From positions 1 through 46,742 of the forward strand of contig NZ_JAODIX010000029.1 of assembly GCF_026586675.1 (NCBI RefSeq): a stretch of DNA of 46,742 nt. Reading direction: 5' to 3'. Position 1 is the stretch's first letter, and every line of letters begins with the position of its first letter. The position numbers were made by a program, and so were the translations under genes. Under the pieces are notes generated by a model. That model was not told where the DNA came from and ran no database searches. It worked only from the letters and a program-made list of their open reading frames with translations. Source of the stretch: Halorubrum yunnanense (GTDB lineage: Archaea > Halobacteriota > Halobacteria > Halobacteriales > Haloferacaceae). Of this stretch, positions 12,205 through 46,742 are shown piece after piece.

Positions 12205-12430
12205 TTATTTATAAGTAGCCGGGCCGGTGACGCGCCCCGGTGAGCGGCCCGGAGGGCCGCGAACCGCCGGTGCGAGGGAGTCGGGCGGCCGGAGCAAAGC
12301 GGAGGCCGCCCGACGAGGCTGGGGAGGCGTGAGGTGGTGTGCGGTTGGGGCTGGGGCTTTGGAAGTGTCCACCGCAGAGCCGCCTACCACTTATAAACAG
12401 CCGACAACAACACCACTCGATCACTGATAA
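12205..12430 (-). repeat. Structured intergenic repeat, copy 1 (reverse, lacks stem I)
   Basis: Read on the minus strand, the copy starts with a TATA-bearing unit (TTATAA near 12391) that ends in TTCCAAAGCCCCAG. It then passes directly into the conserved linker ending CCTCCCCAGCCTCG. Two hairpins follow: stem II with 11-bp arms (12280-12290 / 12304-12314) and stem III GCGGCCC/GGGCCGC (12244-12260). The long stem I found in copies 2 and 4 and the GCCCCTTTGAGTCC block are missing, so this looks like a deletion derivative. It lies between a histidine kinase gene and the 3' end of purNH. Confidence 0.7.
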
Positions 12431-23405: not shown

Positions 23406-23477
23406 TGGACTCGCGGGGATTTGAACCCCGGGCCTTCCCCGTGCCAGGGGGATGATCTACCACTGATCTACGAGCCC
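23406..23477 (-). tRNA. tRNA-Ala (anticodon GGC)
   Basis: The 72-nt minus-strand sequence folds into a full cloverleaf: acceptor GGGCTCG/CGAGTCC with one G-U pair, D stem GATC/GATC, and anticodon stem TCCCC/GGGGA with loop CTGGCAC (anticodon GGC). The variable loop is AGGCC and the T stem CGGGG/CCCCG with loop TTCAAAT, then discriminator A. No intron and no encoded CCA. A TTAATGTA box about 35 nt upstream (near 23510) is a likely promoter. Confidence 0.95.
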
Positions 23478-24280: not shown

Positions 24281-24690
24281 CCCAGCCGTTTATTTATAAA
24301 TGGACGCTCCGATGAACAACTCCAAAGCCCTCAGCTGCTCACTTATAAATGGTTGAACACGGATCGGCGGTGAACACCTCCAAAGCCCCAGCCGCGAGGA
24401 CGGCGCACGCTCGCTGCGCGCTTCAGTCGCTCGCGTTGCTCGCTCTTTCCAGTGCTTGCATCGCCTGCGCCGTCCTCGCGGCTGCCCCTTTGAGTCCCAC
24501 CCCGCACCGCACAGCACCTCACGCCTCCCCAGCCTCGTCGCCGGCGGCGAAGCCGCCGGCTGCAAGCGAGAGCTTCGCTCTCGCCCTGTCGGTCGCCCTT
24601 CGCTTCGCTCCGGGCGACCGACTCCCTCGCGCACTCTGCTCGCGCCCGCTGGGCGCTCGCAGGTGCGCGCCTCCGCGTTGCTATTTATGA
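24281..24690 (+). repeat. Structured intergenic repeat, copy 2 (forward, most complete)
   Basis: Two leader units begin at 24284 and 24333; each carries a TTTATAA or CTTATAA box and ends with CTCCAAAGCCC. Stem I follows: AGCCGCGAGGACGGCGCA (24390-24407) perfectly complementary to TGCGCCGTCCTCGCGGCT (24466-24483) around a 58-nt loop. The linker GCCCCTTTGAGTCCCACCCC...CCTCCCCAGCCTCG comes next. Stem II is GCCGGCGGC/GCCGCCGGC (24540-24560). Extra hairpins, the shared ACTCCCTCGCGCAC block, and stem III GCGCCC/GGGCGC (24642-24656) complete it. The copy abuts the 3' end of the M42 peptidase gene. Confidence 0.8.
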
Positions 24691-34610: not shown

Positions 34611-35092
34611 CCAGCCGGTCATTTATAAATGGTTGATAGTGGAGCGGCGGTGAACACCTCCAAAGCCCCAGCCGCTCAGCTACACGTCGTTGCAGTCGCT
34701 GTGGCCGAGAACACCTCCAAAGCCCCAGCCGCTCGGCTACACGTCGCTGCAGTCGCTGTGGCCGAGAACATCTCCAAAGCCCCAACCGCTCGGCTACACG
34801 TCGCTGCAGTCGCTGTGGCCGAGAACATCTCCAAAGCCCCAACCGCTCGGCTACACGTCGCTGCAGTCGCTGTGGCCGAGAACATCTCCAAAGCCCCAGC
34901 CGCGAGGGCTCGCGCGCCTTGCTGCGCTCCTCGCTCGCTATCGCTCGCTGCGGTGCTTGCTACGGCGTGCTTCGCCCTCGCGGCTGCCCCTTTGAGTCCC
35001 ACCCCGCACCGCACGGCACCGCACCTCACACCTCCCCAGCCTCGTCGGGCGGCCTCCGCTGCGGCCGCTCGGAGGCGCGCGCCACCGCACAA
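34611..35092 (+). repeat. Structured intergenic repeat, copy 3 (forward)
   Basis: A TATA-bearing leader unit (34613-34669) is followed by four 57-bp units (34670-34897). Stem I comes next, AGCCGCGAGGGC (34898-34909) with GCCCTCGCGGCT (34974-34985). The conserved linker GCCCCTTTGAGTCCCACCCC...CCTCCCCAGCCTCG follows, then stem II GCCTCCG/CGGAGGC (35052-35058 / 35070-35076). The right flank GCGCGCGCCACCGCAC also recurs in copy 4. It lies between the FAD oxidoreductase and the threonine-synthase-like gene, which diverge from it. Confidence 0.8.
34670..34897 (+). repeat. 57-bp tandem repeat array (four units) in copy 3
   Basis: Units start at exactly 34670, 34727, 34784 and 34841. Each holds AGCCGCTCGGCTACACGTCG near its start, CTGCAGTCGCTGTGGCCGAG in the middle, and AACATCTCCAAAGCCCC at its end. 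Copies differ by only a few bases. Unlike the leader unit, they have CTACACGTCG where it has the TTTATAA box. There are no unique spacers, so this is not a CRISPR array. Confidence 0.9.
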
Positions 35093-46223: not shown

Positions 46224-46742
46224 GCGGTGGCGCGTGCCGACGAGCGGCCGGTAGGCCGCGAGTCGCACGCGCGAGGGAGCCCGCGACGGCGTTTATAAAC
46301 GCCGTCGCGGCGAGGCTGGGGAGGCGTGAGGTTGCGGTGCGGTTGGGCGGGATTCAAAGGGGCAGTCGCGAGAAGGCCGCAGGCGACGCAAGCACCGCAA
46401 GGACGAAGTGAAACGAGCGACTGAGGAGCGCAGCGAGCGTGCGGCCTTCTCGCGGCTGGGGCTTTGGCGGTGTTCTTCGCCGATCTGTAGTCGAGTATTT
46501 ATAACCGAGCGACTGGGGCTTTGGCGGTGTTCTTCGCCGATCTGTAGTTGAGTATTTATAACCGAGCGACTGGGGCTTTGGCGGTGTTCTTCGCCGATCT
46601 GTAGTCGAGTATTTATAGCCGAGCGGCTGGGGCGTTGGCGGTGTTCTCTGCCGAGCCAGCATCAACCATGTTAGAGCCTGTCATAGAAAGCGTCACGTGC
46701 GAAGCAGCAGGGTTTGGAGACTGTGTCTACAAACTCCAAAGC
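46224..46742 (-). repeat. Structured intergenic repeat, copy 4 (reverse, runs to the window end)
   Basis: Read on the minus strand it has four 57-bp leader units (46456-46683) and stem I. Its arms are AGTCGCGAGAAGGCCGCA (46364-46381) and TGCGGCCTTCTCGCGGCT (46440-46457), given as plus-strand text. The conserved linker ending CCTCCCCAGCCTCG follows, then stem II as a perfect 30-bp palindrome (46281-46310) centred on TTTATAAA. Stem III is GCGGCC/GGCCGC (46244-46259). The window's last bases (AACTCCAAAGC) resemble a leader unit in the opposite orientation. Confidence 0.8.
46456..46683 (-). repeat. 57-bp tandem repeat array (four units) in copy 4
   Basis: CTGGGGCTTTGG-type starts occur at exactly 46456, 46513, 46570 and 46627. 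The first three units are nearly identical and each contains a TATTTATAA box; the fourth drifts after about 45 bp. The period equals that of the array in copy 3, although the unit centres differ in sequence. Confidence 0.9.

Follow-up and report, generated by a model that had tools for sequence, protein, structure and literature searches.

Within the window, by which we mean the whole analyzed stretch of 46,742 nucleotides from Halorubrum yunnanense (contig NZ_JAODIX010000029.1), the 94-nt segment at positions 24390–24483 can pair its two arms into a long stem, and related copies pair as well although their arms differ in sequence. The locus thus raises the question of whether the arms change together under selection for base pairing, as a first-pass annotation of the DNA had proposed. 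The segment is the main hairpin, hereafter P3, of a composite chromosomal interspersed repeat of haloarchaea. The covariation between its arms was confirmed and exceeds what had been claimed for it. Beyond that proposal, the analysis identifies the structured strand, an architecture of helices separated by G.A mismatches, a spread across the order, and a replacement of hairpins as cassettes that complicates any naive reading as compensatory change.

Read on the minus strand of the window, the element opens with an AT-rich TTTATAAA-like box followed by hairpins P1 and P2, the linker GAGGCTGGGGAGGYGTGAGG and a variable spacer, and continues with GGGGTGGGACT-CAAAG-GGG-C, P3, G-GGG-CTTTG and one to several 57-bp tandem units, in which the 3' foot of P3 recurs together with TTATAAAT. 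The AT-rich box upstream of P1 is sharp and TTTATAAAT-like, lying at about -18 to -6 in an alignment of 117 copies, and a second TATTTAAATA often occurs ~30 bp further upstream. The window holds three copies of the element and one P3-less remnant near 12.3 kb (Table 1). This remnant and a second one (L123) appear to have arisen by deletion between two CCCCAGCC direct repeats. A second type of small repeat, ~50 bp long and made of two adjoining perfect hairpins, sits in or beside the hairpins of the element, and such twin-hairpin inserts were also seen elsewhere in the element at L041, L098, L104, L107, L109 and L118. The 57-bp units, being 19 codons long, were considered as a coding repeat, an idea abandoned on finding an in-frame TAA in most units. 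A tRNA gene (Rfam RF00005) at 23406–23477 on the minus strand lies ~0.8 kb from the element, with no sign of a link. Assemblies tend to break at the hairpins and repeats of the element: runs of N and homopolymer-like artefacts were found inside P1 or P2 (L009, L014, L029, L032, L033, L035), and several contig ends of genome G000 fall within element copies.

Table 1. Coordinates in the window of the three element copies, the remnant and the parts of the copy containing 24390–24483
Feature	Positions	Strand	Description
P3 stem I and inner hairpin	24390..24483	-	18-bp stem I, 2-bp helices between tandem G.A mismatches, apical triloop
Outer stem, 3' arm of folded strand	24381..24385	-	CTTTG; pairs with 24488–24492
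Outer stem, 5' arm of folded strand	24488..24492	-	CAAAG; pairs with 24381–24385
G-tract 4	24386..24388	-	GGG; one side of conserved GGG/GGG internal loop
G-tracts 1–3	24485..24503	-	GGGGTGGGACTCAAAGGG on folded strand
P2–P3 linker, conserved	24517..24536	-	GAGGCTGGGGAGGCGTGAGG
Twin-hairpin insertion	24538..24587		GCCGGCGGCGAAGCCGCCGGC-TGCAA-GCGAGAGCTTCGCTCTCGC; between P2 and linker; second small repeat type
Hairpin P2	24588..24622	-	GTCGGTCGCCCGGAGCGAAGCGAAGGGCGACCGAC on folded strand
Hairpin P1	24629..24671	-	GGCGCGCACC-TGC-GA-GC..GC-GA-GCA..GTGCGC
Tandem units	24283..24388		One partial (49 bp) and one full (57 bp); carry TTATAAATGG, end in CTCCAAAGCCC
Second copy	34612..35000	-	57-bp units 34612–34897; P3 34898–34985
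Third copy, element reversed	46349..46640	+	Folded strand plus; P3 46357–46457 and 57-bp units
P3-less remnant	12244..12364	-	CCAAAGCCCCAGCC joined straight to P2–P3 linker region

The pairing described for the individual copies was largely borne out. Stem I comprises 18 bp in the copy at 24390–24483 (AGCCGCGAGGACGGCGCA with TGCGCCGTCCTCGCGGCT) and 12 bp in the copy at 34898–34985 (AGCCGCGAGGGC/GCCCTCGCGGCT), as had been reported. For the copy at 46357–46457, the 18 positions with one non-Watson-Crick pair were recovered, but the supposed wobble is a C.A pair as it was read and becomes G.T only on the opposite strand; on the folded strand a T.G at this pair is recurrent, being found in 12 of 43 copies. 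When these 43 copies were aligned, 96.0% of cells were paired and both sides had changed in 26 of the 37 pairs. The number of doubly changed cells was 171, compared to 46 after shuffling and 5–16 after sliding the arms, and the covariation score was 0.331, compared to 0.130 and 0.03–0.06, respectively. Because the copies share kinship, we also applied an R-scape-like test with a phylogeny-aware null. The tree was built with FastTree, changes were reconstructed by the Fitch method, and in each of 200 simulated alignments the substitutions per branch were kept while their columns were random. Among 126 copies, 7 of 6441 column pairs were significant (E < 0.05) and all 7 lie inside the fold; when testing was restricted to the 37 fold pairs as a predefined set, 12 reached significance. 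Since the method presupposes a tree and recombination breaks that assumption, we take the result as supportive rather than exact.

The pairing reaches beyond the stem originally described. An outer stem, CAAAG/CTTTG, forms across the GGG/GGG internal loop and shows two compensatory changes among the 43 copies, while above stem I, as far as the apical loop, the hairpin consists of 2-bp helices with tandem G.A mismatches between them. The inner 3-bp helix of P1 is complementary in 87% of cases, compared to 51% after shuffling. In 30 P3 copies from distant genera, 91.7% of cells were paired, with 293 doubly changed cells (90 shuffled, 41–59 slid) and a covariation score of 0.684 (0.187 shuffled); this alignment was fitted to the model and therefore leans towards structure, though the slid controls are nonetheless far lower. 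Stem I, though hypervariable among these sequences, still pairs. The core GACGACGTAAGCACC..GAGGAGCGCAGCGAGTC and the G-tracts are retained, as is the outer stem, which carries an A-U/G-C change in 6 of 30. G-tract 4 has at least three G in 97/102, 47/48 and 29/30 copies of the three sets, and all four tracts are intact in 77/102, 31/48 and 21/30.

Several lines of evidence identify which strand folds. On the minus strand, the non-Watson-Crick cells at well-aligned pairs were G.T in 149 cases and A.C in 43 (p 7e-15 by cells, 0.002 by columns). Between the 2-bp steps, GA stands opposite GA in 90–93 of 103 copies from this genome and 40–41 of 48 from a second species, positions at which the opposite strand would carry tandem C.T. 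The minus strand was also lower in folding energy than its complement in 131 of 139 copies with RNA parameters and in 117 of 139 with DNA parameters. From the G.T excess, the tandem GA/GA and the folding energies together, we conclude that a single strand is structured and that it is the window's minus strand, opposite to the one on which the annotation had read the fold.

Whether this strand acts as DNA or RNA is a separate matter, since RNA also tolerates tandem G.A and G.U; the case for DNA comes through the loop spectrum. Tetraloops of the d(cGNNAg) type, closed by C-G, are a classic class of very stable DNA loops, while structured RNAs favor GNRA and UNCG. The triloops of P3 were GNA in 70 of 99 copies and TNC in none. 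Tetraloops were GNNA in 23 of 26 cases in P3, of which just 6 were GNRA, and in 22 of 24 in P1, 2 of them GNRA, giving 37 GNYA against 8 GNRA in the pooled set; UNCG loops were rare in P1 and P3. For DNA minihairpins, extraordinary stability has been described for GNA loops (Yoshizawa 1997, as cited in PMC7432603). The spectrum of loops favors DNA over RNA, and P3 probably owes its shape to selection acting on single-stranded DNA and not on RNA, a reading against which it counts that the gap in folding energy between strands is wider with RNA than with DNA parameters. We further conjecture that the four G-tracts, which flank the P3 duplex and interrupt it, could form with it a quadruplex-duplex junction (GGGTGGGACTCAAAGGGGC-P3-GGGGCTTTG) favored by the molar potassium of the cytoplasm.

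Comparison between species showed that the sites of the element persist while their hairpins are replaced. In the second species (G004), 30 of 48 copies occupy a site also occupied in this genome and in the same orientation. At L197 of G004 the flanking genes match those of a G000 orthologue while the element is in opposite orientation. Between G000 and G004 the orthology signal of the linker is saturated and is kept by the 5' flank only, and P3 of the positional orthologues is no more alike than in random pairs, at 76.9% compared to 75.9% identity. The window's own site was informative in a more closely related pair of species, G013 and G018 (L114/L120). There, 100% identity was found over the 56-nt linker and over 60 bp of upstream sequence, and 97.6% over the neighboring gene, whereas the hairpins match at the level of unrelated copies, P1 at 61%, P2 at 77% and P3 at 66%. 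Elsewhere, P3 alone had changed (L377/L398), P2 alone had changed (L446/L413), or no hairpin had changed (L395/L410). The P1 now present at the window's site in G018 (L431) is identical to the P1 at another G018 site (L398), suggesting, though from few cases, that the donors are copies elsewhere in the same genome. Among the automatically paired sites we relied on these cases (L377/L398, L446/L413, L395/L410 and L431), as automated pairings were partly wrong owing to missed ends and nested inserts. Each hairpin thus behaves as a cassette, exchanged independently with both of its arms and leaving the linkers untouched, so that at least part of the "compensation" between copies is hairpin replacement. 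The proposal that the arms record selection for base pairing therefore stands insofar as pairing exceeds both phylogeny and shuffled controls; its implication of stepwise compensatory mutation in place is not supported.

The element is abundant and its distribution is chromosomal. In this genome, 71 matches were found by DNA search with the element and 114 by a covariance model built from 43 copies. It was found in 38 of 39 genomes of the genus, with up to at least 94 copies each; the remaining genome, G034, was placed in the same genus and has no copy. One complete genome has at least 150 copies. Across the order, 201 of the 293 genomes gave a match to P3, as did 68 of the 87 genera, and the exact linker occurs in named records of Halorubrum, Haloparvum, Halorussus, Halobellus and Halosimplex; most of the 30 copies from other genera carry P3 alone. 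P3 also occurs as inverted pairs a few hundred bases apart or less, in G063 (L085, L360) and at L359 and L365. Searches returned no match to the linker among 2.9 million viral contigs and none to the element among 50,697 phage records; of 72,556 plasmid records, 3 matched.

Gene context was assessed with a home-made gene finder, on which the following counts rest: all 151 copies fall outside predicted genes, and 53 of 135 (39%) lie between convergent genes and 18 of 135 between divergent ones, against a background of ~20% each. In distant genera the orientation to neighboring genes is mixed. There, the 3' end of P3 lies ~100 nt (mostly 92–119) before start codons on the same strand and ~65 nt (48–106) from stop codons on the opposite strand, a fairly constant spacing. 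The orientation bias that a lagging-strand process would be expected to leave was not clear. Around the presumed oriC1, orientation was concordant in 27/35, 12/19 and 18/25 copies, though copies shared between species make these counts non-independent. Genome-wide, we found no replication-strand bias and no run structure, and a strand pattern seen by eye in G037 was lost on testing.

Three other explanations were weighed against selection on single-stranded DNA. In one, the minus strand is transcribed and P3 is a structured RNA, as a 3' UTR or noncoding RNA, for example an element at transcript 3' ends between convergent genes. The single folded strand, its covariation with G.U-type pairs, the excess of convergent neighbors, the larger strand difference with RNA energies and a TATA-like AT-rich box before P1 in most Halorubrum copies would all fit, but the loops are GNA or GNYA, rarely GNRA and rarely UNCG, orientation to genes is mixed in distant genera and no Rfam family covers the element; at the gathering score the Rfam search returned the neighboring tRNA only, and a relaxed threshold added chance matches. 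Nor does the box fit the promoter of a minus-strand noncoding RNA. The usual distance from TATA box to start site is -26/-27, and this box is centered ~17–18 nt before P1, too near for a start 5' of P1, and was rejected as a promoter on that ground. We consider a structured RNA unlikely. Still less likely is that nothing selects the fold and that arms are kept alike by templating (quasipalindrome correction) and ectopic gene conversion in a GC-rich genome. Ectopic replacement of blocks is real, and at L121 the GGGG/GGGG loop has become a perfect palindrome; we nevertheless regard this account as improbable, because templating is symmetric, whereas the wobbles and loops are strand-asymmetric and the G.A mismatches are kept. 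The annotation had itself named inverted duplication of the arms as what would undo its claim, and arm-to-arm copying is argued against because it would erase the tandem G.A/A.G steps that stay mismatched between covarying pairs in ~90% of copies. Moreover, the inner core and G-tracts are conserved order-wide while stem I is hypervariable. Copying of identical arms cannot be the whole story and is at most part of it.

A mobile origin, in which P3 is a non-autonomous transposon of the IS200/IS605 (PATE) or REP/RAYT type whose single-stranded DNA is moved through its hairpins by a Y1 HUH transposase, would account for many intergenic copies, hairpins on one strand and the presence or absence of elements between species, which we did observe. 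Haloquadratum PATEs likewise have near-terminal palindromes and are themselves targets of small repeats (PMC3119063), as here. We judge this origin quite unlikely. Y1_Tnp (IS200) was rejected as the partner, PF01797 being absent in 7 of 38 genomes, all 7 of which bear the element: G002, G004, G005, G015, G017, G018 and G027 have no match and yet 13 to at least 94 copies, whereas G034 has one match and zero copies. Sites are mostly old and shared, copies are rare on plasmids and absent from the viruses searched, and comparison of empty sites recovered no clean junction, target site or target duplication. 

No description of this family was found in the open-access texts that we searched, and each known system resembles it in part. 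The nearest haloarchaeal relatives found are the PATEs and SMR-A of Haloquadratum, which are also transposase-free, numerous and strongly palindromic (PMC3119063). PATEs are tied to IS605-type ends, whereas several element-bearing genomes here have no Y1_Tnp, and dependence on TnpA (Y1), which marks PATEs and the IS200/IS605 family, was not found. SMR-A elements span ~110 bp, end in long inverted repeats and do not duplicate their target; by published description their copies are usually >95% identical, which sets them apart from P3 copies at ~76%. The twin-hairpin inserts inside our element behave like SMR-A, and small repeats insert into PATE palindromes in Haloquadratum (PMC3119063). As in REPs, BIMEs and REPINs, the palindromes are extragenic, number ~100 or more and are often composite, with P3 often in inverted pairs in G063. 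REPs, however, measure 20–40 bp, bear GTAG/CGTC tags and have RAYT transposases (PMC3733652, PMC2817692). The present element folds over 117 nt, contains G.A helices and does not depend on Y1; its 117-nt consensus shows no conserved tag by inspection, and 7 of 38 genomes have no match to Y1_Tnp (RAYT). Miniature inverted-repeat transposable elements (MITEs) are recognized by a target duplication and by terminal inverted repeats that match a known transposase; here, AT-rich TTTATAAA boxes lie at both ends, and comparison of empty sites yielded no clean junction.

Two further bacterial systems offer parallels. The attC sites of integrons are hairpins of variable sequence and conserved structure, recognized as one folded DNA strand. 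P3 shares the conserved shape, the variable sequence and the single-strand hairpin, but its consensus has no conserved RYYYAAC/GTTRRRY core and no cassettes accompany it. BOX elements of Streptococcus, which Croucher and colleagues are said to have described, are reportedly modular, with structured ends and a variable number of tandem internal units; the element resembles them in modularity and tandem units and differs in its unrelated sequence and organism. We know of no G.A-helix hairpin or hairpin replacement in BOX.

The element has a conserved fold on one strand, pairing kept across the order, long-lived sites and hairpins exchanged as cassettes. The explanation that we prefer, and to which we give about even weight, is that P3 is a repeat under single-stranded-DNA selection combined with re-copying of cassettes. 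Most likely, selection or the specificity of an enzyme would act on single-stranded DNA of the folded strand, which, once exposed, would form the hairpin. A repair system, or one that processes hairpins, may then cut this hairpin or bypass it, after which it would be copied anew from one of the ~100 copies elsewhere, the short homology presumably being supplied by the conserved linkers GAGGCTGGGGAGG, GGGTGGGACTCAAAGGGG and GGGGCTTTGG. Pairing would survive such a transfer because both arms travel together, and only correctly folded copies would stay in use, their shape kept by a putative fold-reading protein. We found no processing enzyme. A broader version is a tentative possibility: that the 2-bp/G.A-step hairpin with its GNA loops and four-G-tract module constitutes an order-wide, haloarchaea-specific single-stranded-DNA signal, read by its shape by a putative chromosomal protein and maintained at ~100 sites per chromosome through cassette exchange.

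As this family cautions, stepwise compensation is not the only source of covariation among repeat copies, which can also result when blocks are transferred. The loop spectrum and strand asymmetry suggest that the shape is read in DNA. The replacement of hairpin after hairpin at fixed sites is a recombination behavior open to direct testing in Halorubrum and Haloferax, which can be grown in culture. If the explanation holds, haloarchaeal chromosomes would each carry more than 100 sites at which a fold has been conserved across an order while its sequence turned over, and selection on the shape of a nucleic acid would be recorded there in nature with unusual clarity.
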